Part shown: in pieces, positions 111 through 36,842 of the stretch
Layout: every line of letters starts with the position of its first letter
How positions within the stretch are numbered: the stretch's first letter is position 1
Assembly (NCBI GenBank): GCA_026984675.1
Contig: JALSRQ010000107.1
Location: 1 to 44,006 of the forward strand
Length of the DNA stretch: 44,006 bases
Source of the DNA: Thermaceae bacterium
Lineage (GTDB): Bacteria; Deinococcota; Deinococci; Deinococcales; Marinithermaceae
Direction of reading: 5' to 3'
Position numbers and translations under genes: made by a program
Notes under the pieces: model-generated
What the model saw: the letters and a program-made list of their open reading frames with translations, nothing else
What the model was told of the DNA's origin: nothing
Databases searched by the model: none

Positions 111-1189
111 CCCTGGGCCGGATCCGCGCCGACTACGACTGGGGCCTTTGGACGCTGGTCCTCGTCCTCTCGGCCTTCGGGCTCTTCGTCCTGGGAAGCG
201 CCGCCCCCAGCCCGGCCTTCGTCTTCCGCCAGGGGCTCTGGCTCTTGGCGGGGGTGGCGGCCGCCCTGACCCTGCAGCTCCTCCCCAAGGCGGCCCTCTA
301 CCGGGCGGCCTTTTGGCTCTACCTCCTGAGCCTCCTCCTGCTCGCCGGGGTGCTGGTCGCCGGCCGCGAGGTCAACGGCGCCCGGGCCTGGTTCGAGCTC
401 GGGCCGCTCCGCTTCCAGCCCTCGGAGTTCGCCAAGCTGGCCCTCATCCCGATGCTCGCCCGGGTGCTCGAGCGCCGGTCGCTGGACCGGCTCTCCGGCT
501 ACGCGGTGCCCCTGCTGGTGGCCCTGCCCCCAATCGCCCTCACCCTGGTCGAGCCCGACCTCGGCGGGGCGGCGGTGATGGCCGCGCTGGCGGCCGGGAT
601 GTTCTTTGCCCGGGGCCTGCCCTGGCGCCACCTCCTCTTCGCCGGACTGGCCGCCCTCCTGCTTGTGCCCACCGCGGTCTGGCCCCACCTCCGCCCCCAC
701 CAGAAGGAGCGCATCCTCACCGTCCTAAACCCCACCCGCGACCCCCTGGGCAGCGGCTTTCAGGTCCTCCAGTCGATGATCGCGATCGGCTCCGGCGGCG
801 TCCTGGGCAAGGGCTACGGCCAGGGCACCCAGACCCAGCTCGGCTTCGTGCCCTTCCGCCACACCGACTTCATCTTCTCGGTGGTCGCCGAGGAGATGGG
901 GCTGGTGGGGGCCCTCGGGCTGCTCCTCGCCTACGCCGCCCTGTTCTGGCGCTTTCTCGCCCTGGCCCTCGACCTCCCCTTCCTGGCCGACCGGCTGGCG
1001 GTCGCCGGGGTCTTCGCCTGGATCGGCTTCCAGGTCCTGATCAACGTCGGGGTCACGCTGGGGGTGGCGCCGGTGACCGGGATCACCCTGCCCTTCGTGA
1101 GCTACGGCGGCACCAGCCTGGTCACCCTGTGGCTGGCGGTGGGCCTCGTGCAGCTCCTCTACCGCGACCGTCTGCAACGGGTCCTTTAG
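107..1189 (+). CDS. rodA: Rod shape-determining protein RodA (SEDS family)
   Basis: Polytopic protein with SEDS motifs GARAWFELGPLRFQPSEFAKLALI and FVSYGGTSLV. Confidence 0.9.
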   Translation: MTLGRIRADYDWGLWTLVLVLSAFGLFVLGSAAPSPAFVFRQGLWLLAGVAAALTLQLLPKAALYRAAFWLYLLSLLLLAGVLVAGREVNGARAWFELGPLRFQPSEFAKLALIPMLARVLERRSLDRLSGYAVPLLVALPPIALTLVEPDLGGAAVMAALAAGMFFARGLPWRHLLFAGLAALLLVPTAVWPHLRPHQKERILTVLNPTRDPLGSGFQVLQSMIAIGSGGVLGKGYGQGTQTQLGFVPFRHTDFIFSVVAEEMGLVGALGLLLAYAALFWRFLALALDLPFLADRLAVAGVFAWIGFQVLINVGVTLGVAPVTGITLPFVSYGGTSLVTLWLAVGLVQLLYRDRLQRVL

Positions 1190-1192
1190 ACT
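1187..1192 (+). promoter_or_regulatory. Putative -10 TAGACT containing the rodA stop codon, N6 before the tauE ATG
   Basis: TAG(stop)ACT-CGGGGC-ATG read directly. Confidence 0.4.
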
Positions 1193-1198
1193 CGGGGC

Positions 1199-1933
1199 AT
1201 GGCGCCCTTTCTCATCGGCTTCGCCGCCGGCGGTTTCGGGGCCCTTCTGGGGCTCGGCGGCGGGGTGATCATCGTTCCCGCCCTGACCGCGATCCTCAAG
1301 CTCCCCCAGCACCAGGCCCACGGCACCAGCCTGGTGGCGGTCTCGCTCACCGCCGTGGTCGGCTCGCTCTCCTACGCCCTCGGCGGCTCGGTGGACTGGC
1401 TGGCCGCCGGCCTGCTCACGGTCACCGCCATGGGGGCGGCCCGTTGGGGGGCGGGCTACACCCGCCGGCTGAACGCCCGGGCGCTCCGGCGCTTCTTCGG
1501 GGCCTTCCTGCTCCTGGTGGCGGTGGTCCTCCCCTTCAAGCACCAGCTCCCCCACGTGCGGGCCGGGGGGGCGGGGGCGCTGAGCTGGGCGATCCTCCTC
1601 TTCGCCGGGGCCTTCGCCGGCTTCCTCTCCGGGTTGCTCGGGGTCGGCGGGGGGACGGTGATGGTGCCGGCCCTGGTCCTCGGCGGCGGGCTCGACCAAC
1701 ACCTGGCCCAGGGCACCAGCCTGGCGGCGATGGTGCTCCCCAGTTTGATCGGGGCCTACACCCACTATTCGCTCGGCCACGTGCGGCGCGACGTGGTCCC
1801 CGGGCTCCTGCTCGGGGTGGTGACCGGGGCCTTCCTCGGGGGACGGGTGGCCCTCTCCCTCCCCGAGCTGGGGCTTAGGCTCCTTTTTGCCGGTATCCTG
1901 GTCTGGATGGGCGTGCGGTACCTGCGCCGTTAG
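1199..1933 (+). CDS. TauE/SafE family sulfite exporter-like membrane protein
   Basis: Two repeats of GFGALLGLGGGVIIVPAL / GFLSGLLGVGGGTVMVPAL typical of the family. Confidence 0.85.
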   Translation: MAPFLIGFAAGGFGALLGLGGGVIIVPALTAILKLPQHQAHGTSLVAVSLTAVVGSLSYALGGSVDWLAAGLLTVTAMGAARWGAGYTRRLNARALRRFFGAFLLLVAVVLPFKHQLPHVRAGGAGALSWAILLFAGAFAGFLSGLLGVGGGTVMVPALVLGGGLDQHLAQGTSLAAMVLPSLIGAYTHYSLGHVRRDVVPGLLLGVVTGAFLGGRVALSLPELGLRLLFAGILVWMGVRYLRR

Positions 1934-1942
1934 GAGGGCGAG

Positions 1943-2122
1943 ATGAACCTGGGAATCTGGGAAATCCTGGTCCTTTTGCTGCTGGTCCTTTTGCTTTTTG
2001 GCGGCAAGAAGCTGCCGGAGCTGGCCCGGGGCATCGGCAAGTCGGCCAAGGAGTTCAAAAAGGGGCTTCAGGAGGGGGAATCGGAGGAGTCCGAGGGCGC
2101 CTCCTCCGGCGAGAAGAGCTGA
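1943..2122 (+). CDS. tatA: Sec-independent protein translocase TatA (59 aa)
   Basis: [44 protein letters not shown]...; FGxxKLPEL hinge motif; SD GGAGG upstream. Absent from the supplied ORF track (below 60 aa). Confidence 0.9.
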
Positions 2123-3126
2123 AGGTAGCGGGGTTTCAGCACCACCCGCCGGGTCTCGCCGGCCACCAGGTCCAACCGGTCCTGGACGTGGCGGGGCAGG
2201 AGGACCCGGAGGGTGAGCCCGGAAAGCGCCACCCGCACCGCGACCTGGGCCCCTCGAGGCCGCACCGAGAGGAGGCGGCCGGTGCGTACGTTGGGGGCCA
2301 GGGCGGGGGCCAGGGGGCGGTCCTCCCGGACGAAGAGGACCTCCTCCGGCCGGATCCCGAGCACCACCGGGGTCCCGGGCGGGCGCGGCGGCGCCTCCAG
2401 CCAAAACCGCCCCGCCGCCGTCGCCACCCACAGGCCGCCTTGGTCGATCCCCTCCACCCGTCCGGGGAAGAGGTTTTCGAACCCGGTGAGGCGGGCGACG
2501 GTGAGGCTCCGGGGGCGGGTGTAGACGGTACGGGGGTCGCCCTCCTCGAGGACCCGCCCCCGGTAGAGCACCACCACGCGATCGGCGGCCTGGGCCAGCT
2601 CGGGGTCGTGGGTCGCCACCAGGGCCCGGACCCCGAGCTCGGCGACGACCTCCAGGAGGGCCTCGAGGACCCCCCGGCGGGCGGGGGCGTCGAGGCTGGC
2701 GGTGGGTTCGTCCAGGAGGAGGAGCTCGGGGTCCCGGGCCAGGGCCCGGGCCAGCGCCACCCGCTGGCGCTCCCCCCCCGAGAGCCGGTGGGGCCGCCGG
2801 TCGGCCTTGTCGGCCAGGCCGAAGCGTTCCAGCAGGGCCAGCGCCCGCCGCCGCCCCGCCTCGCCCGGGGTCCCCAGGCCGAACCGAACGTTTTCCAAAG
2901 CGGTGAGGTGGGGAAAGAGCAGGTGCCCCTGGGGCAGGTAGCCGATCGGCCGGCGCTCGGGCGGGAGGCCGGCGAAGGGGGTTCCCTCGGCCGGCACCAG
3001 CCCGGCCAGGGCCTTGAGCACGGTGGTCTTCCCTGCCCCCGAGGGGCCCAGCAACGCGGTGAACCCCCGGATGGAAAACCCCACCGTCAGGGCGACCGGT
3101 CGTCGGATGCGGTAGCGAACCTCCAC
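2068..3126 (-). CDS. modC: Molybdate-type ABC transporter ATPase with C-terminal TOBE-like domain
   Basis: Walker [38 protein letters not shown] start within the modB 3' end. Confidence 0.85.
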
Positions 3127-3755
3127 CGTTCCTCCAGGCTTCGTACCAGCAGGACCAGCCCGAACGCCACCGCCAGCAGGATCAGCGAGGCCCGGTTGGC
3201 GGCGGCGAAGTCGAGGCTCTCCACCAGGTCGTAGAGGTAGGTCGAGGCGACCTGGGTCTTGCCCGGGATGTTCCCCCCGACCATCAGCACCACCCCGAAC
3301 TCGCCGAGGGCGTGGGCGAACCCGAGCAGGGTGCCGGAGACCAGCCCCGGCCACACCAGGGGCAGCACCACCCGGAAAAACCGTTTCGCCGGTCCCGCCC
3401 CCAGGGTGCGGGCGGTGGCCAGGAGCTCGGGGTCGAGGGCCCGGAAGGCCTCCCGGTAGGCGGTAAAGGCGAAGGGGAAGCTGAAGAGCGTGGCCCCGAT
3501 CACCATCCCCGGAAAGGTGAAGGCGAGCGGCGCCGCCCCCAGCCGGGCCAGCGGCCCCTCGGGCCCGAGGGCGAGCAGGAGGTAGAAGCCGAGGACCGTG
3601 GGGGGCAGGGCCAGGGGCAGGAGCAGGACGCTTTCGACCAGGGCCCGGCCGGGGAAGGGGCGGCGAAGGAGGTAGGCGAGGGGGGTGCCGAGGAGGAGCA
3701 GGAGCCCCGCGCTGGCGAGCGCGAGCTTGAGGCTGAGGAGGAAGGCCGGGATCAC
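3087..3755 (-). CDS. modB: Molybdate-type ABC transporter permease
   Basis: GTPLAYLLRRPFPGRALVESVLLLPLALPPTVLGFYLL and EFGVVLMVGGNIPGKTQVASTYLYD, typical of ModB. Confidence 0.9.
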   Translation of the reverse strand: MIPAFLLSLKLALASAGLLLLLGTPLAYLLRRPFPGRALVESVLLLPLALPPTVLGFYLLLALGPEGPLARLGAAPLAFTFPGMVIGATLFSFPFAFTAYREAFRALDPELLATARTLGAGPAKRFFRVVLPLVWPGLVSGTLLGFAHALGEFGVVLMVGGNIPGKTQVASTYLYDLVESLDFAAANRASLILLAVAFGLVLLVRSLEERWRFATASDDRSP

Positions 3756-4450
3756 GGGCGTTCCAGACCGAAGGCGGCCAGCGTCCGCTGGGCCGGTTCG
3801 CTGAGAAGATAGGCGAAGAAGGTCCGGGCCTCGGGGCGGTCCTTAAGGAGCAGTGCGGGGTAGACGATCGGGGGGTCGCGCCCGGGGGGGAGCCGGCGGT
3901 GGCTGCCGGCAAGGCGGAGGGCCGAACCCAGGTCGATGAGCCCGGCGTCGGCGGCGAAGGCGGCGATACGGGCGGCCTGGGCCACGCTCTCGCCGTAGAC
4001 CAGCTTGGCCTTTACCCGGGACCACACCCCCGCCGCCTTGAGGGCCGCCACCGCCGCCGCCCCGTAGGGGGCGGAGCGGGGGTTGGCGATCGCCACCCGC
4101 CGCACCCGGGGGTCGGCGAGTTGCTCGAGCCTGACGGCGGTGAGGCCGGTGTGGGGCGGGAAGTAAAGCGCCAGCACGCCCCGGGCCAAGGGGGCCTCGG
4201 CCTCGGGCTCGAGGCCCCGCCGGTAGCGGGGGGAGGCCGGGAGGTAGAGGTCGTAGGGGGCCCCCGCGCGGATCTGGCCGTAGAGCTTCCCCGAGGAGGC
4301 CAGGACCAGCCGTACGGGAGCGCCCCCCTCCTCCTGGAACCGGGCGGCCAGGGCCTTGAGGGCGGGGCCCAGGCTGGAGGCCGCCGCCACCGTCACCGGC
4401 TGGGCCAGGGCGCTTCCTAGCAGGAAGAGGAGGAGGAAAAGCCGCGCCAC
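3752..4450 (-). CDS. modA: Molybdate-type ABC transporter substrate-binding protein
   Basis: Signal peptide then VTVAAASSLGPALKALAARF...VRLVLASSGKLYGQIRAGAPYDLYLPAS; GTG start chosen by signal peptide and upstream TATGCT-N6. Confidence 0.85.
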   Translation of the reverse strand: MARLFLLLFLLGSALAQPVTVAAASSLGPALKALAARFQEEGGAPVRLVLASSGKLYGQIRAGAPYDLYLPASPRYRRGLEPEAEAPLARGVLALYFPPHTGLTAVRLEQLADPRVRRVAIANPRSAPYGAAAVAALKAAGVWSRVKAKLVYGESVAQAARIAAFAADAGLIDLGSALRLAGSHRRLPPGRDPPIVYPALLLKDRPEARTFFAYLLSEPAQRTLAAFGLERP

Positions 4451-4456
4451 CCCCCC

Positions 4457-4462
4457 AGCATA
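4457..4462 (-). promoter_or_regulatory. Putative -10 TATGCT, N6 before modA GTG
   Basis: Minus strand TATGCT-GGGGGG-GTG, immediately after the cycA terminator tail. Confidence 0.4.
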
Positions 4463-4467
4463 CGAAA

Positions 4468-4492
4468 GGGCGGCGCCCAGAGGGCGCCGCCC
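4468..4492 (-). terminator. Intrinsic-type terminator downstream of cycA
   Basis: Perfect 11-bp inverted repeat GGGCGGCGCCC-TCT-GGGCGCCGCCC followed by TTTCGT on the minus strand, just after the cycA stop. Confidence 0.75.
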
Positions 4493-4506
4493 GGGTTCCC
4501 TGGGTT

Positions 4507-4971
4507 CTACTTGCCGGCCTCGAGGGCCTTCCAAAGCTGGTAGACCTGCTGCGGGGTGAGCTGCTTGCCCCGCTCCTTGGCGACCTCGTCCTGGGTGAAG
4601 TCCTTGAAGCCCTTGGGGAGCTTCTTGTCGTTCCCCCAGGCCTTGGCCACGTAGGTGAGCACGGCGGCGACGTCGGCGTCCTTAAGCGAGCCGCCGAGGC
4701 CGGGCATCATCCCGTTAAAGGTGCCGCCGCCGGCGGTGATCTGGCCCTGGAGGCCGAAGAGCACCACATCGATCAGGAAGGCCCGGCCCTTGTCCCCCTT
4801 CCCGATCAGTTCGGGCACCTCCTCGACCAGGGGCGGGAAGGCCCCGGTGATGCCCTTGCCGTTGGCCTGGTGGCAGCTCATGCAGTAGGTCTGGTAGACC
4901 TGCTCCCCGCTGGCCGCGAAGGCCAGCGCGGCGAGCGCCAGGAAGCTCGCCAGGATCAGCGCTTTCTTCAT
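4507..4971 (-). CDS. cycA: c-type cytochrome, Thermus cytochrome c-552-like
   Basis: Signal peptide, CMSCH heme motif, ...VVLFGLQGQITAGGGTFNGMMPG...AWGNDKKLPKGFKDFTQDEV...KQLTPQQV resembles Thermus c-552; SD GGGAGG upstream of ATG (GTG at 4980 also possible). Confidence 0.85.
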   Translation of the reverse strand: MKKALILASFLALAALAFAASGEQVYQTYCMSCHQANGKGITGAFPPLVEEVPELIGKGDKGRAFLIDVVLFGLQGQITAGGGTFNGMMPGLGGSLKDADVAAVLTYVAKAWGNDKKLPKGFKDFTQDEVAKERGKQLTPQQVYQLWKALEAGK

Positions 4972-4990
4972 ACCCATCACCTCCCGGACG

Positions 4991-4996
4991 ATTATA
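4991..4996 (-). promoter_or_regulatory. Putative -10 TATAAT for cycA
   Basis: TAGGGTATAATCGTCCGGGAGGTGATGGGTATG on the minus strand, directly after the potD stop. Confidence 0.55.
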
Positions 4997-4998
4997 CC

Positions 4999-6024
4999 CT
5001 AGCGCGATTTCAGCTCGGTCCAGATCCGGTCGTAGAGCCGGATCGCGTCGCCGATGTCGTGGATGTACTCGAGTTTTTGCCGCACCGCCTTGGGGGGGAA
5101 GACCGCCGGGTTGTCCTTGAGGGCGGGGTCGAGGTAGGGGAGGGCGGCGGCCACCGGGGTGGCGTAGCTGTTGTAGTTGGAGATCGCCGCCGCGATCCTG
5201 GGCTCCAGGATAAAGTTCAGGAAAGCGTAGGCCAGCTCGGGGTGGGGTGCCCGGCGGGTGATCGCCACCGCGTCGGTCCAGATCGTTCCCCCCTCCTTGG
5301 GGACCCGGTAGCGGACCTGGGGGGCCTCCCCCTGTATCTGGACGATGTCGCCGGAGTAGGCGTGGACCACCGCGGCGTCGCCGGAGAGCAGCCGGCTGCG
5401 GGCCTCGACCCCGCCGGCAAACCCCAGGCACCGCTTCTTGGCCCCCAGCAGGACCTTTTTGGCCTCGGCCAGGTGGCCGGGGTCGGTGTCGTTCAGGGAG
5501 TAGCCGAGGTACTTGAGGGCGGCGCCGATCGTCTCCCGCATCTCGTCGAGCAGAAAGCAGGGCCCGGCGTACCGCTTGGGGTCGAAGAAGACCCCCCAGG
5601 AGTCCACCGGCCTGGTCACCGCCTGGGCGTCGTAGGCGATCCCGGTGGTGCCCCACTGGTAGGGGATCGAGTGGCGGTTTTGGGGGTCGTAGGCGGGGTC
5701 CTTGAACTCCGGGGCGAGGTTTTTAAGGTTGGGGAGCTTGGCCGGGTCGAGGGACCGGATCAGCCCGGTCCGGGCCATCTCCAGCACGTAGTAGTCGGGC
5801 GGCACCACCACGTCGTACTCGGCGTCGCCACCGGCCTGCAGCTTGGCCAGCATCGCCTCGGGGGCCTCGAAGGTGTCGATGATCACCCGGGCCTGGTAGC
5901 GCCGCTCGAACTCGGCGACCACCTCCTCGGGGATGTAGTCGGCCCAGTTGAACAGCCGGAGCTCGCCGCGGGCCAGCGAGAGCCCGGCGAGCACGGCCAG
6001 GAGCGAGATCAGGGTCCTTTTCAT
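4999..6024 (-). CDS. potD: Spermidine/putrescine ABC transporter substrate-binding protein
   Basis: Signal peptide then LRLFNWADYIPEEVVAEFERRYQARVIIDTFEAPEAMLAKL, typical PotD. Confidence 0.93.
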   Translation of the reverse strand: MKRTLISLLAVLAGLSLARGELRLFNWADYIPEEVVAEFERRYQARVIIDTFEAPEAMLAKLQAGGDAEYDVVVPPDYYVLEMARTGLIRSLDPAKLPNLKNLAPEFKDPAYDPQNRHSIPYQWGTTGIAYDAQAVTRPVDSWGVFFDPKRYAGPCFLLDEMRETIGAALKYLGYSLNDTDPGHLAEAKKVLLGAKKRCLGFAGGVEARSRLLSGDAAVVHAYSGDIVQIQGEAPQVRYRVPKEGGTIWTDAVAITRRAPHPELAYAFLNFILEPRIAAAISNYNSYATPVAAALPYLDPALKDNPAVFPPKAVRQKLEYIHDIGDAIRLYDRIWTELKSR

Positions 6025-6025
6025 C

Positions 6026-6802: not shown

Positions 6803-6806
6803 GGCG

Positions 6807-8757: not shown

Positions 8758-8783
8758 GGGCCGCCTGGGTGCCTTCAGCAACC

Positions 8784-8818
8784 GCCCCTCCCGCGCGAGT
8801 CTACGGCGCGGGAGGGGC
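8784..8818 (-). terminator. Long GC hairpin between lipoprotein gene and potA, probable terminator
   Basis: 13-bp perfect stem GCCCCTCCCGCGC / GCGCGGGAGGGGC with 9-nt loop; no clear U-tract. Confidence 0.5.
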
Positions 8819-8831
8819 CCCCGGCAAGCGC

Positions 8832-9431
8832 TCAGAGCCCCTGGGCCAACCGCCCCAGCGGCTCGCTGGTGAGCCGGAGGGTGAAGCCGGCGAGGCGGAA
8901 GTGGAACTTCTGCCCGCTCCCCTCAAGCCGAAGCCCCACCCGGAAGCTCCCGTGGCCGTTCTTGATGGTGGCGAACCCGGGATCGCCGTTTTGGAGCTTG
9001 AGCTTTAGGGTCAGGGATCCGCTCGCCCCGGCGGCGAGGGGGCGCGGCTCCAGGCTCGCCTCGCCCGCCTTGTACTGGGGCTGGTAAATATTGCTCTCGT
9101 CCTCGGGGGCGAGGTAGAGGGCGGCGGTGAGGGTGAGGTCGCCGGCCGCCTGGTTCTCGATGGCGGCCTCGAGGTCGACCGCGACCGCATCCAACGCGTC
9201 GGTCAGCCGCCCCGGCACGCGAGCCAGGTAGCCCTGGAGGTCGGGGGTGGTGTAGTCCTGATCCTGGTCCGGGAGGTAGACCTGAAAGGCCGTGGGGGCT
9301 CCGAAGTCGACGGTGTCCTCGGCCTGGCTCCCGAGCAGGCTGGCGACGTTTACCTCGACGGCGTAGCGGGTGTGGGCGCTGCAGCCGACGAGCAGGGCGG
9401 CGAGCGCCAAGAACGTCCAGGTCCTCCGCAT
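8832..9431 (-). CDS. Hypothetical lipoprotein
   Basis: Signal peptide with lipobox ALLVGC; SD GGAGG upstream. Confidence 0.7.
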   Translation of the reverse strand: MRRTWTFLALAALLVGCSAHTRYAVEVNVASLLGSQAEDTVDFGAPTAFQVYLPDQDQDYTTPDLQGYLARVPGRLTDALDAVAVDLEAAIENQAAGDLTLTAALYLAPEDESNIYQPQYKAGEASLEPRPLAAGASGSLTLKLKLQNGDPGFATIKNGHGSFRVGLRLEGSGQKFHFRLAGFTLRLTSEPLGRLAQGL

Positions 9432-9440
9432 GGTTCCCTC

Positions 9441-10754
9441 CTAAAACCCCACCGCGGCGGCCACCCCGAAGACCTGGCCGCCGACCAGGGGGGCGGTGTG
9501 GCTGGTAAGGGCGAGGTCGAGCCGCAGGGCGGCGAGGTCCACCCCCAGCCCGAGCCCCAGCCGTAGGCCGCGCTCGTAGCCGATCCCGGCCCGGAGGGCG
9601 AAGGTTCCCAGGGGGTACTCGGCCCCCAGGTGGGCGGCGATCGCCCCGTCGTAGCCGAGGTCGGCGGCGAGGAGGAGGCGCCCCCCCTCCTCAAGGGCGA
9701 GGTCGCCGGCCCCGCTCAGGTAGAGGGCCGGGGCCACCCCGGCGAAGGTCTCGGTCTTCGGCTGGGCGTGGGTGCCCCCGCCGTCCCGGACCTCCTCGGT
9801 CCCCTGCCACCGGGCGTAGCTCACCAGGTTCCGCACCCCCACCCCGAAGACCCCGACCTTGTTGGCGTAGGCCAGCCCGAGGTCGAGCCGGAGGCCGTAA
9901 CCCAGCCCCTGGCCGATCGCGCTGGTAAAGATCCGGGTGGTGGTGGTGCTTCCCGAGGGCTGACCGCCGGCGTCGGTGGTGAAGGCGGTGGTGACCTCGG
10001 CCTCGGCCCGCGCGAGGCCAAGGAAGGCCTGGCCCCGGACCCCGGCGTAGAGGGTGCCCTCAACCTCCGGCAGGGGCGGCAGCGCCTGGGCGAGGGCGAA
10101 CCCCAGGCTGAGCCCGGCGCTCGCCGCCCCCCGGGCGACCAGGCGGTAGGTCCGGTTGGGCGCCAGGCTCCCCCCGGCGAGCAGGGCGGCGAGCTCGGGG
10201 TCGGGCTCGGCCGAGAGGCCCTCGACCCCGGCGAAGAGCCCCACCTCGCCGTAAAAGCCCCGACCGAGGGCGAAGGGGTAGCTCAAAAGCGGCGGCGGGG
10301 TGAGCCCGGGGGGCGGGCTGGGCGCCAGGTCCCGGGCGGCCGAGAGCCTCAAGGGGCGTCCCTGGCCGTCCTCCAGCCGAAACCGCGGGTTCCCGTCGCC
10401 GTCCCCCTCGATCTTGAGGACCACCTGGTCGGGGCTGCGGGCGGGGTTGAGGAGGAGGGCCCCGGGGTGGGCGAGCTGGTCGTAGAAGCTGAGGAGGTCG
10501 AAGCTGGAATAGAAGGTCCCGGGGTCGGCGAGGTAGTAAAGCGGGCTCCGGTCCGGCAGCAACAGGCCCAAAAGCCCCACCGGCAGCGACCAGGTGCCCC
10601 GCTGCCAGCGGGGTTCGATCGCCGCGTAGGCGGGGTTTTGCCAGGAGGCGCCCGGCCCCGGCAGGGCGACCCCGCCCATCCCCACCTCGCGCACGCTCTG
10701 GGCCAGCGCGAGGGATAGGAGGAGCAACCCAAGCGCACCGATACGGGTTTTCAT
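9441..10754 (-). CDS. Putative outer-membrane beta-barrel protein
   Basis: Signal peptide (ALAQS), MGGVALPGPGASWQNPAYAA N-terminus, repeated amphipathic strands, terminal aromatic (AAVGF). Confidence 0.65.
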   Translation of the reverse strand: MKTRIGALGLLLLSLALAQSVREVGMGGVALPGPGASWQNPAYAAIEPRWQRGTWSLPVGLLGLLLPDRSPLYYLADPGTFYSSFDLLSFYDQLAHPGALLLNPARSPDQVVLKIEGDGDGNPRFRLEDGQGRPLRLSAARDLAPSPPPGLTPPPLLSYPFALGRGFYGEVGLFAGVEGLSAEPDPELAALLAGGSLAPNRTYRLVARGAASAGLSLGFALAQALPPLPEVEGTLYAGVRGQAFLGLARAEAEVTTAFTTDAGGQPSGSTTTTRIFTSAIGQGLGYGLRLDLGLAYANKVGVFGVGVRNLVSYARWQGTEEVRDGGGTHAQPKTETFAGVAPALYLSGAGDLALEEGGRLLLAADLGYDGAIAAHLGAEYPLGTFALRAGIGYERGLRLGLGLGVDLAALRLDLALTSHTAPLVGGQVFGVAAAVGF

Positions 10755-10761
10755 ACCCCTT

Positions 10762-10767
10762 AGGCTA
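10762..10767 (-). promoter_or_regulatory. Putative -10 TAGCCT, N7 before the outer-membrane protein ATG
   Basis: Minus strand TAGCCT-AAGGGGT-ATG. Confidence 0.3.
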
Positions 10768-10773
10768 CCCGGG

Positions 10774-11999: not shown

Positions 12000-12007
12000 A
12001 CGGAATC

Positions 12008-12015
12008 ATTATAGT
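12008..12015. promoter_or_regulatory. Overlapping divergent -10 elements for yebC (TATAAT, minus) and comF (TATAGT, plus), each N8 from its ATG
   Basis: CATACGGAATCATTATAGTCGAGACAAATG read on both strands. Confidence 0.65.
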
Positions 12016-12023
12016 CGAGACAA

Positions 12024-12638
12024 ATGCCCTGGCTGGAGGCCTTTTTGGGGCGGCGCTGCCCGGTTTGCGGCGGCCCCCTGGACGCGGTGGGGGTCTGCCG
12101 GGCCTGCCGCGAGGCGCTGGTCCCCGAGCGGGTCGGGGGGGCGGTGTACCTGGCCCGCTACCCCCGGGTGCGGGGGCTGGTGCGGGCGGCCAAGTACCGC
12201 GCCCACCGCCGGGCGGCCCTCTGGGCGGGGGAGCGGCTGGCCGACCGGGTGGCCCAGACCGGCTGGCCGATCGAGGCGGTGGCCTGCGTGCCCACCCTCC
12301 CCTGGCGGGCGGCGCTGAGGGGGGGTCACCTGCCGGCGGTTTTGGCCGGGGGCCTGGCCCGGCGGCTGGGCCGGCCCCTCTACCGGGGCCTGGTGCGAAC
12401 CGCGTACACCCCGAGCCAGACCCGGCGGGCCCAGAGGCGGCGGCTCCCCCAGGTCTTCGCCGCCCGCGGCCGCCCGCCGGCCGGGGTCCTTCTGGTCGAC
12501 GACGTCCTCACCACCGGGGCCACCTTCGCCCGGGCCGCCGAGGCCCTCCTCGAGGCGGGGGCGAGTACGGTCTGGGGCGCCTTTCTGGCGGTGGCCGAGC
12601 CCGATCGGCTGCGGCGCTTGCCCTACCGAAAGGTATAA
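12024..12638 (+). CDS. comF: ComF-family amidophosphoribosyltransferase-like protein
   Basis: CPVCGGPL...CRACR zinc motif, PRPP motif VLLVDDVLTTGATF. Confidence 0.88.
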   Translation: MPWLEAFLGRRCPVCGGPLDAVGVCRACREALVPERVGGAVYLARYPRVRGLVRAAKYRAHRRAALWAGERLADRVAQTGWPIEAVACVPTLPWRAALRGGHLPAVLAGGLARRLGRPLYRGLVRTAYTPSQTRRAQRRRLPQVFAARGRPPAGVLLVDDVLTTGATFARAAEALLEAGASTVWGAFLAVAEPDRLRRLPYRKV

Positions 12639-12639
12639 T
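12634..12639 (+). promoter_or_regulatory. Putative -10 TATAAT containing the comF stop codon, upstream of the DUF4258 gene
   Basis: GGTATAATCGTCCCGGAGGCGGGAATG; TAA stop lies inside TATAAT. Confidence 0.5.
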
Positions 12640-12655
12640 CGTCCCGGAGGCGGGA

Positions 12656-13042
12656 ATGAAGCTCCGGCGTCTTGGCGACCTCGTGCCCTACCTGCGCGAG
12701 GGCCGCTACCGGCTTGGGCCCCACGTGGCCCGGCACATGCGGGCCGAGGGGTTCACCGAGCTCGACGTGGTGCGGGCCGTCGAGTACGGCCGGGAGCTCG
12801 CCGTCTACCCCGAGGACGCCCGGATGCTGGTGCTCGGCTACATCGTGGTCAGCCCCCGGCTCAAGCTCCCGCTCCACGTGGTGCTGGAGTACCGCAAGCC
12901 CCGCTTCGTGGACATCGTGACCGCCTTCATCCCCCGGGAGCCCCACCGGGTCTACTCCCGGGCCCGGCTCGCTTTGTTGCTCCGCTTCGACGGGGCCCGC
13001 ACCGAGGTCGAGTGGTCGGGCCCCCGACCCCGCCGTGGCTAG
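12656..13042 (+). CDS. DUF4258-like protein
   Basis: RLGPHVARHMRAEGFTELDVVRAVEYGRELAVYPED... with a C-terminal beta region; SD GGAGG. Confidence 0.65.
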   Translation: MKLRRLGDLVPYLREGRYRLGPHVARHMRAEGFTELDVVRAVEYGRELAVYPEDARMLVLGYIVVSPRLKLPLHVVLEYRKPRFVDIVTAFIPREPHRVYSRARLALLLRFDGARTEVEWSGPRPRRG

Positions 13043-14411: not shown

Positions 14412-14420
14412 GGCGCTCTC

Positions 14421-14428: not shown

Positions 14429-14436
14429 CTTTGGGC

Positions 14437-23017: not shown

Positions 23018-23702
23018 AGTAGTCCTCCCCGTAGTCCTCCGGCAGGCCCCGAAGGCGCCGCCAGACGTTCCGCGCGTGGACCCCGTAGAGCTTGAGCCGC
23101 CCGCCCCGGAGCCGCCGACCCGAGGTCATCACCCGCTGGCGCGGCTGGTAACGGACCTCCCCCAGGGCCTTGAGCTTGAGGCCGAGGTGGACGTCCTCGG
23201 CGAAGGGCCGGTCGTAGCCGCCCACCGCCAGCGCCGCCTCCCTTCGCACCGCGTGGTTGGCCCCCGAGAGGTTGGGCTGGCCCAGGGCGTGGGTGAGGCG
23301 CAGGAAGAGGGGGAAGCCGTAGCGGGCCAGCCAGCGATCGAGGGCCGGGGCCTCGAAGAGCTCGAGGGGGCCGTAGCTGGCCACCACCCGGGGGTCCTCG
23401 AACGCCTCCAGGATCGCCGCCGTCCACCCCGGCAGCACCCGCCCGTCGGCGTCGGTCTGGGCCACGATCGCCCCGCTGGCGGCCTCGAGGCCGGCCTGGC
23501 GGGCCCGGTGCACCCCCGCTTCCTCCACCCGGATCACCCGGGCTCCGGCCTGGGCGGCGATCGCGGCGGTGGCGTCCACCGAGCCGTTGTCCACCACGAT
23601 CACCTCGTCGGGCGGGGGGTCCTGGGCCAGGATCGACTCCAGCGCGGCCCCGATGTAGGCCTCCTCGTTTCTTGCCGGGACGACGACGGAGAGCCGGGGC
23701 AT
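22998..23702 (-). CDS. Family 2 glycosyltransferase
   Basis: MPRLSVVVPARNEEAYIGAALESILAQ...VIVVDNGSVD...QTDADGRVLPGW. Confidence 0.9.
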   Translation of the reverse strand: MPRLSVVVPARNEEAYIGAALESILAQDPPPDEVIVVDNGSVDATAAIAAQAGARVIRVEEAGVHRARQAGLEAASGAIVAQTDADGRVLPGWTAAILEAFEDPRVVASYGPLELFEAPALDRWLARYGFPLFLRLTHALGQPNLSGANHAVRREAALAVGGYDRPFAEDVHLGLKLKALGEVRYQPRQRVMTSGRRLRGGRLKLYGVHARNVWRRLRGLPEDYGEDYFAERNR

Positions 23703-23711
23703 GTCGCCCGG

Positions 23712-23717
23712 ATTATA
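23712..23717 (-). promoter_or_regulatory. Putative -10 TATAAT containing the upstream GT4 stop codon, N9 before the GT2 ATG
   Basis: Minus strand GCGTATAATCCGGGCGACATG. Confidence 0.55.
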
Positions 23718-24906
23718 CGCGGCTGGAGCCGTTTTTCAGGGTGGGAAAGCCGAAGTAAAGCTTTCGGGGTTCGCTCTGGAAGATCGCCTCGGCTTCCTCG
23801 TAGGCCGCCACCATGGCCTCGGCCACCCGGGGGGCGCTGCGGGCGGCGGCAAAGCGGCGGGCCTCCTCGGCGAAGCGGCGGCGACGGGCCTCGTCGGCGA
23901 GCAGACCGGCCGCCGCCCGGGCCAGGGCGGGGGCGTCGCCGGGGGGGACCAGGTACCCGGTGCGCCCGTCCTGGACGCTGTCGATCGCTCCGCCGGCGGC
24001 CACCGCCACCACCGGCAGCCCCATCGCCTGGGCCTCCCAGAGCACCAGCCCCTGGGTCTCGGTCTCGCTGGCGAAGAGGAAGAGCTCGGCGGCGCGGTAG
24101 TAGCCGCCGATCGCGGGGTAGGGAAGGGCGCCGGCGAAGGTCACCCGGTCGGCCACCCCGAGCTCCTCCGCCAGGGCCTCGAGGGCCTCGCGCTCGGGGC
24201 CCTCGCCGACGATCACCCAGTGGGCGTTGGCGTCGTGAGCCAGGCGGGCGAAGGCCCGCACTGCCACGTCGAGGCTCTTTTCCTTGCCCAGCCGGCTCAC
24301 GGTGAGGAGCCGCCGCCGCCCGGCCGGCCAGGGGTCGGGCTCGGGCCGGGGGGCGGCCTCGAGGAGCTCGGTGTCGATGCCGGTGGGGATCACCCGCACC
24401 GGTCGCTCGATGCGGTAGCGCTGGACCAGCTGCTTGACCGGGTGGGTGGGGGCGATCACCAGCTCGACCCGGTTGTAAAAGGCCCGGGCCAACCGGGGGA
24501 TGATGTGGGTGTGCCGGTCGAGGAAGGCGAGGCCGGGGACGTAGTGGGCGTACTTCTCGTAGTGGGTGTGGAAGGTCGAGAGGTGGGGCACCCGCCACTT
24601 CTGGGCCAGCGAGAGGGCCCAAAGCCCCAGGGTGAAGGGCACGTGGGAGTGAACGATCTCGAACCGCTTGGGCAGGGCCTTGCTGCTCGGGAGCCCCAGC
24701 CGGTAGTCCTCGAAGAAGGGGTAGGGCACGCTCTTGACCCGCACCACCCCCTCCTCGGGCTCGGCCCCGGGGAGCTCGGGGGCGATGATCCAGGCGTCGT
24801 GGCCCTGCCGCCGGAGCTCCCGCCAGAGCAGGTAGACGCTGGTCGAGACCCCGTTCTTGCTGGGGAAGTAGACGTCGGTAAAAAGCCCCACCCGGAAGAG
24901 CCGCAC
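23713..24906 (-). CDS. Family 4 glycosyltransferase (lipid-glycosyltransferase-like)
   Basis: VGLFTDVYFPSKNGVSTSVYLLWREL, FHTHYEKYAHYVPG, VIPTGIDTELL, FASETETQGLVLWEAQAMGLPVVAVAAGG. Confidence 0.88.
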   Translation of the reverse strand: MRLFRVGLFTDVYFPSKNGVSTSVYLLWRELRRQGHDAWIIAPELPGAEPEEGVVRVKSVPYPFFEDYRLGLPSSKALPKRFEIVHSHVPFTLGLWALSLAQKWRVPHLSTFHTHYEKYAHYVPGLAFLDRHTHIIPRLARAFYNRVELVIAPTHPVKQLVQRYRIERPVRVIPTGIDTELLEAAPRPEPDPWPAGRRRLLTVSRLGKEKSLDVAVRAFARLAHDANAHWVIVGEGPEREALEALAEELGVADRVTFAGALPYPAIGGYYRAAELFLFASETETQGLVLWEAQAMGLPVVAVAAGGAIDSVQDGRTGYLVPPGDAPALARAAAGLLADEARRRRFAEEARRFAAARSAPRVAEAMVAAYEEAEAIFQSEPRKLYFGFPTLKNGSSRV

Positions 24907-24912
24907 GGAGCC

Positions 24913-24918
24913 ATCTTA
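24913..24918 (-). promoter_or_regulatory. Putative -10 TAAGAT containing the upstream GT2 stop codon, N6 before the GT4 GTG
   Basis: Minus strand TAA(stop)GAT-GGCTCC-GTG. Confidence 0.4.
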
Positions 24919-27961: not shown

Positions 27962-27968
27962 GGCGGGT

Positions 27969-27974
27969 ATTGTA
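27969..27974 (-). promoter_or_regulatory. Putative -10 TACAAT, N7 before the GT4 GTG
   Basis: Minus strand TACAAT-ACCCGCC-GTG. Confidence 0.5.
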
Positions 27975-27992
27975 TCGCCGGCGGTTTCCCCC

Positions 27993-27998
27993 TAGGAT
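27993..27998 (+). promoter_or_regulatory. Putative -10 TAGGAT, N8 before mfd ATG
   Basis: TAGGAT-GCGGGCGG-ATG. Confidence 0.45.
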
Positions 27999-28006
27999 GC
28001 GGGCGG

Positions 28007-30940: not shown

Positions 30941-30947
30941 GAGAGCC

Positions 30948-33398
30948 GTGCGGGTCGTCGTCGGCCACGAGAACCTCGACCTCGACGCCCTGGGGGGCAT
31001 GGTGCTGGCCCGCTACCTCCACCCCGGGGCGGTGCTGGTCCAGGTCGGGGGGCTGGAGGGGCGGATGCGGGAGGCGGTCCACCTCTACGGCGACCGGGTG
31101 GTGCTGCTCCCCGCCGCCCAGCTCCCCCTCGAGGCGGTCACCGAGGTGGCGGTGGTGGACACCCAGAGCCGCCGGCGGATCGGTCCCTTGGCCGAGCTGG
31201 TCGGGCGGGTGCCCTTCTTCCTCTACGACCACCACCCCCCCGAGGACGACGCGATCCCCGCCGCCGGCGGGGTGGTGCGCCCGGTGGGGGCGGCGACCAC
31301 CCTGATCGTTCAGCTCCTGGCCGACCGCGGCTTCGAGCCGGGCCCGGCCGAGGCCGACCTGGGCTACGCCGGCATCCTCGAGGACACCGGCCGCTTCACC
31401 TACCCCGGCACCACCCCCGACGACCTCGAGGCCGCCGCCTGGCTGCTCCGCCGGGGCGCCGACCCCGGGCGGGTGCGGGGATTCGTCGAGGGCAAGCTGG
31501 CCCCCGAGGCCAAGGAGGTCCTGGAGGAGCTCCTGGCCACCGCCCAGGTGGTCCGGGCCGGCCCCTACCGGGCGGTGGTCGCCGAGGCCCGCAAGGAGGG
31601 CTACGTTCCCGCCCTCGCCCCCCTGGCCCACACCGTCGCCGACCTGTTCGACGCCGACGCGGTGTTCCTGCTCTTTCGCCTGGGCGACCAGCGGTTGGTG
31701 ATCGCCCGCAGCCGTCGGGGCATCGCGGTGGACCGGGTGCTAAGGGAGCTGACCGGGCGGGGCGGGGGCCACCCCCGGGCCGCCTTCGCCCGGGTCGACG
31801 AACCCCTGGAGCGGGTTCGCGAGCGCCTCCTCTTGGCCCTCCCGGCCTACGCCGGCGGCGAGCCCCGGCTCGGCGACCGCATGACCCGGGGGGTCGAGGG
31901 CATCCACGACAGCCCCACCGTCGCCGAGGCCCTGGACCGGATGAAGCGGCGCGGCTACGGCGGCATGCCGGTCTTCGAGGGGGAGCGGGCGGTCGGGGTC
32001 CTGAGGCGGCGGGACCTCGAGCGGGCCGCCCTCCTCGGCCTCGGCGACGAGCCCGCCCGCGGCTTCATGCACCCCCCGGTGGTGCTCCCCGCCGACGCCC
32101 CCCTCTCGGCCGCCGAGCGGGCCCTCAAGGAGGGGGCCGGCCGGGTGCTGGTCGCCGACGGCGGCCGGGTGGTGGGGATCTTCACCCGGACCGACCTCTA
32201 CCAAAAGCACGAGGCCGAGCCCGACCTCGCCGAGGAGGTCGACCGCCGGCTGCCCCCGGCCGCCCGGCGGGCGGTGGCGGTCCTGGCCGAGCGCTTCCCC
32301 GAGGCCACCCTCTACCTCGTCGGCGGGGCGGTCCGCGACGCCCTGCTCGGCGAGGTCGGCCCCGATATCGACCTGGTGGTCGAGGGGGTGCCCGCCGAGG
32401 AGGCCGCCCGTGCCCTGGTCGCCGCCCTGGGGGGGCGGTTCGAGCCCCACCCGGCCTTCGCCACCGCCCGGGCCGAGCTCGCCAGCGGTCTCAAGGTCGA
32501 CCTCGCCAACCCCCGGGAGGAGCGCTACCCCCACCCCGGCGCCCTGCCCCAGGTGGTCCCGAGCACCCTGGAGCGCGACCTCCGCCGCCGCGATTACACG
32601 GTGAACGCGATGGCGGTCCGGCTTCACCCCGAGCCCCGGCGCCTCTTTGACCCCTTCGGGGGGCTGGCGGACCTCAAGGCCCGGCGGCTCCGGCCGCTCT
32701 CGCCGGTCGCCTTCGTCGAGGACCCCAGCCGGATCCTCCGGGGGCTTCGCCTCGCCGCCCGGCTGGGCTTCGCGTTCACCCCCGAGGCCGAGGCCCTGGC
32801 CCGGGCCGCCCTCGAGCCGCGGATCCTCCGGCAGGCCTCGAGGAGCCGGTTCAAGGACGAGCTCCTCCTGGCCCTCGCCGAGCCCGACCCCCTCAAGGTG
32901 CTGCGGCTCTTCGAGGCCTACGGGGTCCTCGAGCGGGTCTTCGGATTGCGGCCCGGCCCCGAGGTCTGGCGGGCGATGGAACGGCTGGGCCGGCTCCGCC
33001 CCGAGGTGGCGGTGGCCCCAGAGGCCTACCTCTACCTGCTCCTGCTAGGGGCCTCCGACCCCGAGGGCTTCGTCCGCCGCTTCGGTCTGCCCAAGCTCTA
33101 CGCCGAGGGGGCCCAAAGGATCCGTCGCCCGCCCGAGGACCCGGCGGCGGTGCGGGCCCTGGGCCCCGCCTTCGAGCAGGCCTTCCTGGCCTACCACCCC
33201 GAGCGGGCGGGCTGGCTCAAGGAGGAGCGGCGGGTGCTCCGGGGCCGCGACCTGCTGGCCCTCGGCATGCGCCCCGGGCCGGAGGTGGGCCGGGTCCTGC
33301 GGGCGGTGGCCGAGGCCCGCCGCCGCGGCGAGGTGGCGAGCTTCGAGGAGGAGCTCGCCCTGGCCCGTAAACTGATAAGCCGTGATGGGTCTTCTTAG
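30948..33398 (+). CDS. Fusion: DHH-family phosphoesterase + tandem CBS + CCA-adding/poly(A) polymerase nucleotidyltransferase
   Basis: GHENLDLDALGG, LYDHHPPED (DHH); DRMKRRGYGGMPVFEGERAVGVLRRRDL (CBS); YLVGGAVRDALLGEVGPDIDLVVEG, RRRDYTVNAMAV, FVEDPSRILRGLRLAARLGF (PAP/CCA). Confidence 0.92.
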   Translation: MRVVVGHENLDLDALGGMVLARYLHPGAVLVQVGGLEGRMREAVHLYGDRVVLLPAAQLPLEAVTEVAVVDTQSRRRIGPLAELVGRVPFFLYDHHPPEDDAIPAAGGVVRPVGAATTLIVQLLADRGFEPGPAEADLGYAGILEDTGRFTYPGTTPDDLEAAAWLLRRGADPGRVRGFVEGKLAPEAKEVLEELLATAQVVRAGPYRAVVAEARKEGYVPALAPLAHTVADLFDADAVFLLFRLGDQRLVIARSRRGIAVDRVLRELTGRGGGHPRAAFARVDEPLERVRERLLLALPAYAGGEPRLGDRMTRGVEGIHDSPTVAEALDRMKRRGYGGMPVFEGERAVGVLRRRDLERAALLGLGDEPARGFMHPPVVLPADAPLSAAERALKEGAGRVLVADGGRVVGIFTRTDLYQKHEAEPDLAEEVDRRLPPAARRAVAVLAERFPEATLYLVGGAVRDALLGEVGPDIDLVVEGVPAEEAARALVAALGGRFEPHPAFATARAELASGLKVDLANPREERYPHPGALPQVVPSTLERDLRRRDYTVNAMAVRLHPEPRRLFDPFGGLADLKARRLRPLSPVAFVEDPSRILRGLRLAARLGFAFTPEAEALARAALEPRILRQASRSRFKDELLLALAEPDPLKVLRLFEAYGVLERVFGLRPGPEVWRAMERLGRLRPEVAVAPEAYLYLLLLGASDPEGFVRRFGLPKLYAEGAQRIRRPPEDPAAVRALGPAFEQAFLAYHPERAGWLKEERRVLRGRDLLALGMRPGPEVGRVLRAVAEARRRGEVASFEEELALARKLISRDGSS

Positions 33399-33996
33399 CC
33401 TCCTTACCAACCCCTTCGTCTTCCTGGTGGTGGGGGTCGCCGCCACCTTCGGCCTGGTGGTCCACAACCTGGCCCAGGCCTGGCTCGCCGACCGCTACGG
33501 CGACGCCACCCCCCGCCGCCTGGGGTTCCTCACCCTGGAGCCGCGGGTCCACCTCGACCCGCTCGGGCTTTTGCTCCTCTTCCTCCTCGGCTTCGGCTGG
33601 CCGCGGTTCGTCCCCTACCGGCTCTACGGCCGCCGGGAGGCGGCGGTGGCGATGATGGGCCCGCTCGGTTTTCTGGCAGCGGCCTTCGTCTACCTCCTGC
33701 TCTCCCGGGTGCTCCCCGGCGGCTTCGGCCTCGGCTACGGTCTGGAGTACGCCAGCATGGTGATGATCGGCCACGCCGCCGTCTACCTCTTCCCGATCCC
33801 GCCCCTCGACGGGGCCCGGGCGGTGCGGGCGCTGGGGGGGCCGGAGGTGCGGCGGTTCCTCGCCCAGCTCGAGGCCTACGGTCCCATCGGCTTTCTCCTC
33901 ATCTTCCTCGTGCTCAGCTACACCGGGGTGCTGGGGGCGGTGGAGCGCGGGCTCTTGGGCCTTCTGTTAAGCCTTCTTAGGGCCATCGGACTGTAG
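33382..33996 (+). CDS. M50-like membrane protein lacking HExxH (predicted inactive paralog)
   Basis: [41 protein letters not shown]...[15 protein letters not shown] aligns with the next gene; HNLAQ replaces HELAH. Confidence 0.8.
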
Positions 33997-33999
33997 GGT
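33994..33999 (+). promoter_or_regulatory. Putative -10 TAGGGT containing the upstream stop codon, N6 before the M50 protease ATG
   Basis: TAG(stop)GGT-GGGCCG-ATG. Confidence 0.3.
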
Positions 34000-34005
34000 G
34001 GGCCG

Positions 34006-34662
34006 ATGCTGATCTCCCTCTTGCGCGAGGACCCGCTGGCCTTTTTCCTGATCGCGGTCGCCCTGGTCTTCGCCCTGGTGCTCCACGAGCTGGCCCACGG
34101 GCTGGCGGCGCGGGCCTTCGGGGACGACACCGCCGAGCGGGCCGGTCGGCTCTCCCTGAACCCCCTCGCCCACCTCGACCCCCTGGGGACCCTCCTGCTC
34201 CTCACCGTGGGGTTCGGGTGGGCCCGGCCGGTGCCGATCAACCCCTACCGCTTCCGGAACTACCGGGCGGGACTCTTCGTGGTCTCGATCGCCGGGATCC
34301 TGGTGAACCTGGGGCTCGCGGTGGCCGGGGCGCTGGCCCTCAAAGGGCTGGCGACCCTCGACCCCCAGGCGGTTTACCTCGCCTACCGGGGCGGGCACAG
34401 CCCGGTCGGGACCCTCGCGTTGGCCCTATACTTTTTCGTCTCGATCAACCTGGTGCTGGCGGTCTTCAACCTGATCCCGATCCCGCCCCTCGACGGCTCC
34501 AAGATCCTCCAGTCGCTCCTGCCCCTCCGCTACCACCGGGTCTTCTGGCAGCTCGAGCGCTACGGCTGGGTCACCTTCCTGCTGATCCTCACCGTCCTCC
34601 GGGGTCCGATCGAGGCGGTGATCGGCTGGAGCCAGCGGGCCTTCCTCGGCCTCTTTTTCTAG
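34006..34662 (+). CDS. Site-2 protease family (M50) membrane metalloprotease
   Basis: [56 protein letters not shown]. Confidence 0.9.
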
Positions 34663-34663
34663 G

Positions 34664-34669
34664 TAGAAT
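34664..34669 (+). promoter_or_regulatory. Putative -10 TAGAAT, N7 before gatA ATG
   Basis: TAGAAT-CGCCGGG-ATG, one nt after the upstream TAG stop. Confidence 0.5.
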
Positions 34670-34676
34670 CGCCGGG

Positions 34677-36119
34677 ATGGACGCGCTCCGCATCGCCGAG
34701 GCGGTGAATGCCGGCGCCCTCGACCCGGTGGAGGTGGTCGCCGAGCACCGCGCCCGGATCGAGGCCCAAGACCGCCGCATCCACGCCTTCCTGACCCTGA
34801 ACCCCGCCGCCGAGGAGGAGGCCCGGGCGGTGGCCGGCCGGGTGGCCGCCGGCGAGCGGCCGCCGCTGGCCGGGGTGCCGTTCGCCGTCAAGGACAACCT
34901 GGTCACCCGGGGGCTCCGCACCACCGCCGGTTCCCGGGTGCTGGAGAACTTCGTGCCCCCCTACACCGCCACCGCGGTGGACCGGTTGCGGGCGGCGGGG
35001 GCGGTGCTTTTGGGCAAGACCAACCTCGACGAGTTCGCCATGGGCTCCTCCACCGAGCACTCCGCCTTCGGCCCCACCCGCAACCCCTGGGACCTCAAGC
35101 GGGTCCCCGGCGGCTCCTCGGGGGGCTCGGCGGCGGCGGTGGCGGCCGGGATGGTGCCGCTCGCGCTGGGCTCCGACACCGGCGGGAGCATCCGCCAGCC
35201 GGCCGCCTACACCGGGGTGTTGGGGTTCAAGCCGACCTACGGTCGGGTCTCCCGCTACGGCCTGATCGCCTACGCCTCCAGCCTCGACGTGGTGGGCCCC
35301 TTCGCCCGCTCGGTGGGGGACCTGGCGGCGGCGATGGAGGCGATCGCCGGTCGCGACCCCAAGGACGCCACCAGCCTCGAGGCCGCCCCCGCCTTTACGG
35401 AGGCCCTCGACCGCCCGGTCCAAGGCCTCCGGGTCGCCTGGGTGCGGGAGACCCTGGGGCCGGGCACCGACCCCGGGGTGCGGGAGGCCCTCGAGCGGTT
35501 CGCGGGGGTCCTGGAGGACCTCGGACTCACCGTCGGCGAGGTGGGCCTCCCCGAGCTCGAGTACGCCCTCGCCGCCTACTACCTGGTGGCCACCAGCGAG
35601 GCCAGCTCGAACCTCGCCCGCTACGACGGCACCCTCTACGGGGCCCGGGCGCCGGGCGAGGAGCTGGTCGCCGCCATGAAGGCCACCCGCGCCCGCTACT
35701 TCGGGGCCGAGGTCAAGCGGCGGATCTTCATGGGCACCTTCGCCCTCTCCTCGGGCTACTACCAGGCCTACTACGGCCGGGCGCTCCGGGCCCGGGCGGC
35801 GATCGCCCGGGCCTTCGAGCGGGCCTTCGCCGACTACGACCTCCTGCTCACCCCCACCGCCCCCACCCCCGCCTTCCGGTTGGGGGAGAAGCTCGCCGAC
35901 CCCCTGAGCATGTACCTCACCGACGTCAACACGGTGGCCGCCAACCTCGCCGGCCTCCCCGCCCTCAGCCTGCCGGCGGGGTTCTCCCGGGGGCTCCCGG
36001 TGGGGGTGCAGCTGTTGGGGCCGCCGCTCGCCGACGAGCGGCTGCTGGCGGTGGCCCGGGCCTACGAGCGGGCCGCCGGGGGGGTATTCCGGCGCCCCCC
36101 GCCCCCGCCCCAGGGGTAA
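34677..36119 (+). CDS. gatA: Glutamyl-tRNA(Gln) amidotransferase subunit A
   Basis: [88 protein letters not shown]. Confidence 0.95.
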
Positions 36120-36122
36120 GTT
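36117..36122 (+). promoter_or_regulatory. Putative -10 TAAGTT containing the gatA stop codon, N6 before the exonuclease GTG
   Basis: TAA(stop)GTT-AGGGGG-GTG; AGGGGG could also act as SD. Confidence 0.3.
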
Positions 36123-36128
36123 AGGGGG

Positions 36129-36842
36129 GTGGAGCGCCGCACCCGCGAGGCCTCGAGGCTGGCCCAGTTCCTGCGCAAGCGGGGCCGCCCCCTGCCCTGG
36201 CCCGGGGCCGAGCCCCCGGACGGGCGGTTCTTCCTCGAGGCCGGCGAGCTCGGGCTCTGGGAGTGGCGGCGTCCCTTCCCCCCCGGGGGCCGGCCCTGGG
36301 TTGCCCTCGACCTCGAGACCACCGGACTCTCGCCCGCCCGCGACGCGATCACCGAGATCGCGGTGGTGCGGCTGGAGGGCGGGGAGCCCCGGGCCTTCGC
36401 CACCCTGGTCCGCCCCCACCGGCCGATCCCGCCCCGGGTCGAGCGGCTCACCGGGATCACCAACGAACTGGTGCGGGACGCGCCCCCTTTGGAGGAGGCC
36501 CTGGAGGCCGCCCTGCCGATGCTAAAGGACGCCGTCTGGGTGATCCAGAACGCCGGCTTCGACCTGGGGTTTCTGGCCCCCGCCCTGGCCCGGCTCGGGG
36601 TTAGAATGGAACCCGACGTGGTCGACACCCTGGTCCTCGCCCGCCGGGGCCTCCCGGGGCTTCGAAGCTACCGCCTCGCCCGCCTGGCCGAGGTGCTGGG
36701 CTGGGAGGGCGAGGGCCGCCACCACCGGGCCCGGGCGGACGCCGAGGCGGCGCTCTGGGTGGCCCGCGAGCTCTACTATCTCCTCGGCCGAGGCCGGCCG
36801 CTAGCCCTGGAGGCGCTATGCAGGAAGCCAAGTATACCCTGA
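36129..36842 (+). CDS. DnaQ-like 3'-5' exonuclease (DNA polymerase III epsilon-like)
   Basis: VALDLETTGLSPARDAITEIAVVRL, IQNAGFDLGFL, HHRARADAEAALWVARELY. Confidence 0.88.
   Translation: MERRTREASRLAQFLRKRGRPLPWPGAEPPDGRFFLEAGELGLWEWRRPFPPGGRPWVALDLETTGLSPARDAITEIAVVRLEGGEPRAFATLVRPHRPIPPRVERLTGITNELVRDAPPLEEALEAALPMLKDAVWVIQNAGFDLGFLAPALARLGVRMEPDVVDTLVLARRGLPGLRSYRLARLAEVLGWEGEGRHHRARADAEAALWVARELYYLLGRGRPLALEALCRKPSIP

Follow-up and report, generated by a model that had tools for sequence, protein, structure and literature searches.

The window analysed here, a stretch of 44,006 nucleotides (nt) on contig JALSRQ010000107.1, belongs to the metagenome-assembled genome of an uncultured Thermaceae, a heat-loving bacterium (2.08 Mb in 160 contigs), and contains four same-strand gene junctions in which the stop codon of one gene is also the first half of a putative -10 promoter element (TANNNT) of the next. 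At these junctions, exactly as an earlier note made from the letters of the window had claimed, stop and start codons are separated by an identical gap of 9 nt, the stop providing bases 1–3 of a hexamer that is followed by six further bases (N6) and the start codon. They lie between rodA and tauE (1187–1201, plus strand; TAGACT-CGGGGC-ATG, rodA stop TAG), GT2 and GT4 (24904–24918, minus strand, read from 24918 to 24904; TAAGAT-GGCTCC-GTG, GT2 stop TAA), an M50-like and an M50 gene (33994–34008, plus strand; TAGGGT-GGGCCG-ATG, stop TAG of the first gene), and gatA and an exonuclease gene (36117–36131, plus strand; TAAGTT-AGGGGG-GTG, stop TAA). The gatA label is taken from the earlier note, the other genes of these pairs having been checked by Pfam (FtsW/RodA and TauE in the first pair); for the upstream M50-like gene Pfam gave no match above threshold, and a genome search links it to the second M50. 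None of the four has a Shine-Dalgarno (SD) sequence before the start codon or a stop inside an AGGAGG-like motif, and alternative starts at stop+5 (for example TAGG-GTG) were rejected because they do not fall in the reading frame of the gene that follows.

Occurrence of the layout across genomes

The junctions were counted in a sample of this genome composed of the window and 672 kb of further stretches (716 kb, guanine-cytosine (GC) content 71.6%), relatives being likewise sampled as stretches, with genes called by a three-periodic Markov model that is blind to promoters and SD sequences. Gap 9 forms a peak among the 511 same-strand junctions obtained, with 27 cases as compared to 7 at gap 8 and 13 at gap 10. 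Considering TAA and TAG stops, a T at the sixth base counted from the stop (T+6) is present in 14 of 24 junctions at gap 9, in 26 of 118 at gaps 16–299 and in none of 15 at gaps 5–8, the gap-9 value differing from a 17% background with p = 4e-6; outside the window it is found in 10 of 18 (p = 0.005 against long gaps and p = 2e-4 against the 17% background). A lack of such enrichment had been named beforehand in the earlier note as refuting its proposal, and the proposal passes this test. The pattern TARNNT-N6-RTG has 248 matches genome-wide versus 58 for the reversed pattern.

The results obtained for the relatives are comparable. The genomes G007, G008 and G016 together yield T+6 in 9 of 13 gap-9 junctions versus 27 of 139 (p = 3e-4), and pooling them with the source genome yields 23 of 37 (62%) versus 53 of 257 at long gaps (about 20%; p = 6e-7), with none of 33 at gaps 5–8. 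The excess in this pool is specific to position +6, as T occurs in 1–7 of the 37 junctions at all other positions. An independent replicate is given by plasmid pTT27 of Thermus thermophilus HB8, where 5 of 9 gap-9 junctions carry T+6, counted on RefSeq genes whose annotation may use leaderless-promoter models and which are not fully blind; TARNNT at gap 9 occurs there at cbiB>HEPN, fni>nucleotidyltransferase, hyp>msrA, vapC>CAP and surE. G019 has too few tight junctions to be informative in this test. Contig G009:C1 (135,351 bp, possibly a plasmid) was excluded from the pooled four-genome test and kept in the pools for the gap-wise T+6 and -10 frequencies and for the register and orthologue counts; it has few leaderless -10 elements and zero nested junctions, and shows no effect, unlike pTT27, which does carry nested junctions.

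Gap 9 in fact holds two classes of junctions. An SD-like sequence is present in 1 of 14 TARNNT junctions versus 11 of 13 others (p = 7e-5), and most of the latter read TAGGAGG, where the stop is part of the SD sequence itself. These results confirm that the stop/-10 junction pattern is real and goes beyond chance.

Promoter-like properties and registers of overlap

A number of properties relate the nested hexamers to ordinary -10 elements. A T at -7 from the start codon is linked to a TA at -12 (86 of 103 versus 100 of 604 starts), nested elements have the same preferred offsets (-12/-13) as those of divergent genes, and a G-rich discriminator between the T and the start codon is common to both. 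Within G001, the closest relative with data (about 83% DNA identity), the TA...T is kept at the same spacing in all 8 comparable nested junctions, with differing bases in between and swaps of TAG and TAA, and the TATAAT-N9-ATG of the GT4>GT2 junction (see below) is kept as well. These observations support the view that the TARNNT elements behave as leaderless -10 elements, from which promoter activity and the transcription start site at the nested elements may be inferred.

Extending the analysis to all gaps revealed a wider rule. A TANNNT at -12/-13 precedes 36% of the genes that follow a strand switch (divergent genes), while among same-strand genes its frequency depends on the gap: about 3% at gaps 0–3 and overlaps, 40% at gap 4, 57% at gap 5, 6% at gaps 6–8, 51% at gap 9 and 25% at gap 10, and at gaps 11–12 it lies at -12 to -15 in 41%. 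At gap -4, the commonest tight junction, a -10 element is found in 5 of 199 cases, and the suggestion that each cistron has its own transcript fails for such neighbours. The gaps carrying a -10 element are those at which a stop codon can share its bases. Since stops begin with T, they fit only at -10 positions 1, 6 and sometimes 3, so that the stop as first half of the element, the layout originally described, is a correct observation of only one of three registers. In register 1 the stop forms -10 positions 1–3, which gives gaps 9–12; in register 3 its T is at position 3 (TATART), at gaps of 7 and up; in register 6 its T is position 6, at gaps 4–5, and the upstream gene ends in NTA-NNN-TAG. 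This last register is the clearest class: at gap 4 a TA lies five bases before the stop in 14 of 32 junctions versus 7 of 367 elsewhere (p = 2e-12), NTA making up 0.5% of all codons. On pTT27 this register is seen, at gap 4, in lycopene cyclase>acyltransferase and cobS>hyp. As a separate observation in the same genome sample, TAG is the stop in 53 of 74 junctions at gaps 0–5 and in 147 of 214 convergent genes, which is unusually high for 72% GC.

Orthologous junctions in relatives

A distinct picture emerges for each junction when orthologues are compared. The -10 element of tauE is retained in all close relatives, being nested in the source genome and G001 and stop-free in the g2 genomes and G008, where the rodA stop lies 22–39 nt upstream and tauE nevertheless has TAGAGT or TAGACT at -12; in genomes of the genus, the rodA stop is nested in it as TAGACT or TATAGT. 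For GT4, a TANNNT close before the start is present in nearly all relatives, and in most of them no upstream GT2 homologue was found. The fact that these elements persist where the upstream stop lies elsewhere means that the promoter supplies the stop and not the reverse: the comparison shows that at tauE and GT4 the predicted -10 element is older than the overlap, a putative promoter doubling as a stop codon. The earlier note's idea of stop codons reused as promoters is in this way retained as to the presence of leaderless-like -10 elements and reversed in direction for these two genes.

The exonuclease junction changes register, since G006, G002 and G003 keep the -10 element at -12 with the stop T (of TAG or TAA) as its sixth base, as in TAGGC[TAG]GGGT|ATG, and in the source genome and G001 the stop is its first half. 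Reciprocal orthologue junctions give both kinds of result, namely a -10 element independent of the stop and a stop nested in one genome only, and at the M50 and other junctions a stop may have gained a promoter. The direction in which such overlaps have evolved in general we infer from these comparisons.

Beside these cases, when gene own|150 of the source genome is compared with its G007 orthologue, the same stop is part of TAGACT (a leaderless -10 element) in the former genome and of TAGGAG (an SD sequence) in the latter; the mode of initiation may have switched at this stop.

Other junctions in the window

The TANNNT hexamer is present at the four N6 junctions and also at GT4>GT2 (23700–23717, minus strand), where the GT4 stop TAA occupies bases 3–5 of TATAAT and the N9 spacing to the ATG is in the tail of the -10 distance distribution. 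The earlier note had proposed this layout for two junctions; both TATAAT sequences exist, and its description holds for GT4>GT2. The other, comF>DUF4258 (12634–12658, plus strand), also has the comF stop TAA within TATAAT, and was rejected as a leaderless case, as the 16 nt between TATAAT and the DUF4258 ATG at 12656 contain GGAGG and the gene is SD-led. An unfused contrast occurs in the same array at M50>gatA (34660–34679, plus strand), with a TAG stop, one base, a separate -10 element TAGAAT, N7 and the gatA ATG, whereas the G016 orthologue is fused (TA[TAG]T-N6-ATG). The window has two more gap-9 TAR junctions, lacking the T and both of the TAGGAGG SD type: one at 9429–9443 (minus strand; stop TAG inside the SD sequence, ATG at 9431), the other before a start at 1943 that belongs to a dubious open reading frame of 59 amino acids. 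The start codons of the divergent pairs 11999(-)/12024(+) and 14411(-)/14437(+) lie about 24 nt apart, and both pairs have back-to-back overlapping -10 elements (for example ATTATAGT, readable both ways), which suggests shared bidirectional leaderless promoters.

Discussion

Our reading, to which we assign a probability of roughly 80%, is that each junction holds a leaderless sigma-A promoter for the gene downstream, its -10 element sharing bases with the upstream stop, that the sharing is driven by GC content, and that for two or more of the window's four junctions the -10 element is the older part. The -10 element, a TANNNT located 6–9 bases before the start codon, would share bases with the stop of the preceding gene; RNA polymerase would open the DNA at these shared bases and start at the start codon or a few bases from it, and the downstream gene would thereby gain its own leader-free mRNA. 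The overlap would arise because in DNA of about 72% GC the -10 element is almost the sole place able to hold a stop, and the preferred gaps (9–12, 4–5 and 7) because the T of the stop needs a T in the element (positions 1, 6 and sometimes 3). At two or more of the window's four junctions, the upstream frame would have come to end in an older -10 element because its neighbour changed or the spacer shrank. A passive model, in which random frames run into the promoters of divergent genes, places the first stop at -10 positions 1, 3, 6 and later in proportions 78:11:31:5, and the observed registers (27:2:16:3; p = 0.32) match it, so that the choice of register needs no special selection.

Several results weigh against this reading. 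Read-through into the following gene would be expected of two thirds of random frames and is seen in only 8 of 56 cases (p = 2e-14); the passive picture is thus presumably incomplete, and selection against frames that cross the promoter, or a compaction that halts at fusion, would have to be added. Searching about 17 nt upstream of the nested -10 elements revealed no rise in TTGACA (-35) matches, which leaves the nested sites uncorroborated by this signal, ordinary leaderless starts being equally without it in the same search. The conservation of the T in G001 relative to other starts is marginal (identity at other -7 positions 66%; p = 0.05, n = 8). Also, M50>M50 is nested only in the source genome and in G001, which has TAAACT-N6-ATG, and its T could be due to chance, and other relatives have gaps of 1–11 nt or overlaps without a -10 element.

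The strongest competitor, which we nonetheless regard as doubtful, is that the stop came first: stops already in place would have provided the TA that a -10 element needs, and selection for T+6 would then have created a new promoter. The M50>M50 junction and several reciprocal orthologue pairs, nested in one genome and coupled or SD-led in the relative, argue for it, as does the retention of the T through swaps of TAG to TAA; but at tauE, GT4 and several orthologue pairs the relatives have a -10 element that does not depend on the stop or that overlaps it in a different register, the enrichment that is strongest (T of the stop at base 6) draws its TA from sense codons, and the register proportions agree with passive geometry. 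It is unlikely, in our view, that the overlap represents, beyond economy, a functional coupling in which ending the upstream protein and opening the promoter draw on the same bases, transcription and translation that arrive at the end of the first gene directly repress or time initiation of the second, and interchange of TAGNNT and TAGGAG would switch between leaderless and SD-led modes.

Explanations in which no promoter is involved fare worse. A gap of 9 nt could be set by SD placement or by termination-reinitiation, and stops nested in SD sequences are indeed real at gap 9 (TAGGAGG) and known generally (PMC2784483); yet these are the junctions that lack TARNNT, and SD placement predicts neither T+6 nor NTA-NNN-TAG at gap 4, making a purely translational origin very improbable. 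Chance had been raised as a caveat by the earlier note, since TANNNT has few fixed bases and a stop brings two of them along, and a scan of 40 junctions can be expected to yield some matches; only T+6 is informative for each junction, against a background of 17–22% T, and M50>M50 alone could be such a match. As an account of the whole set, chance is refuted by a T+6 excess that is position-specific, present outside the window and replicated in relatives, and we give it hardly any credence beyond single junctions, for which it may hold. Least credible of all is an effect of T+6 on translation termination: bases 3' of the stop can influence termination in general, but T+6 varies with the distance to the next start, from none at gaps 5–8 to its gap-9 maximum.

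If the promoters are active, the gap predicts transcription units, genes 4–5 or 9–12 nt apart often having their own promoter and those at gap -4 almost never, and distance-based operon prediction would misjudge many Thermaceae genes; in spite of their tight packing, such genes may be activated separately. The overlap further accounts for the favoured distances between genes and for a constraint (NTA-NNN-TAG) on the codons that end upstream proteins, and offers a simple case in which RNA polymerase and, at the stop, the ribosome read the same 6-bp element.

Leaderless -10 elements and stop/SD overlaps are already known, and a systematic stop/-10 overlap with fixed registers appears to be new, no report of it having been retrieved from the literature open to our search, in which many subscription papers and the complete study of Deinococcus deserti start sites are lacking. 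The junctions share with the leaderless promoters of Deinococcota (PMC12340547; PMC3160421) a TANNNT 6–7 nt before the start, the lack of an SD sequence and of a required -35, and a wide occurrence in the phylum, and experiments have established that such -10 motifs direct leaderless expression and need no -35 (PMC12340547); the junctions differ in that the -10 element overlaps the neighbour's stop, stop codons being never mentioned in the texts of these two papers. The leaderless promoters of Corynebacterium glutamicum, of another phylum (PMC3890552), have the same TAnnnT core, with 33% leaderless mRNAs according to the passages covered, in which stop overlap is not described. A further parallel is the overlap of stop codons and SD sequences in short co-directional spacers (PMC2784483), where likewise the choice of stop and the length of the gap are limited by a signal that belongs to the following gene; here the overlapped signal is a putative promoter, and the gaps (4–5 and 9–12) and registers are different.

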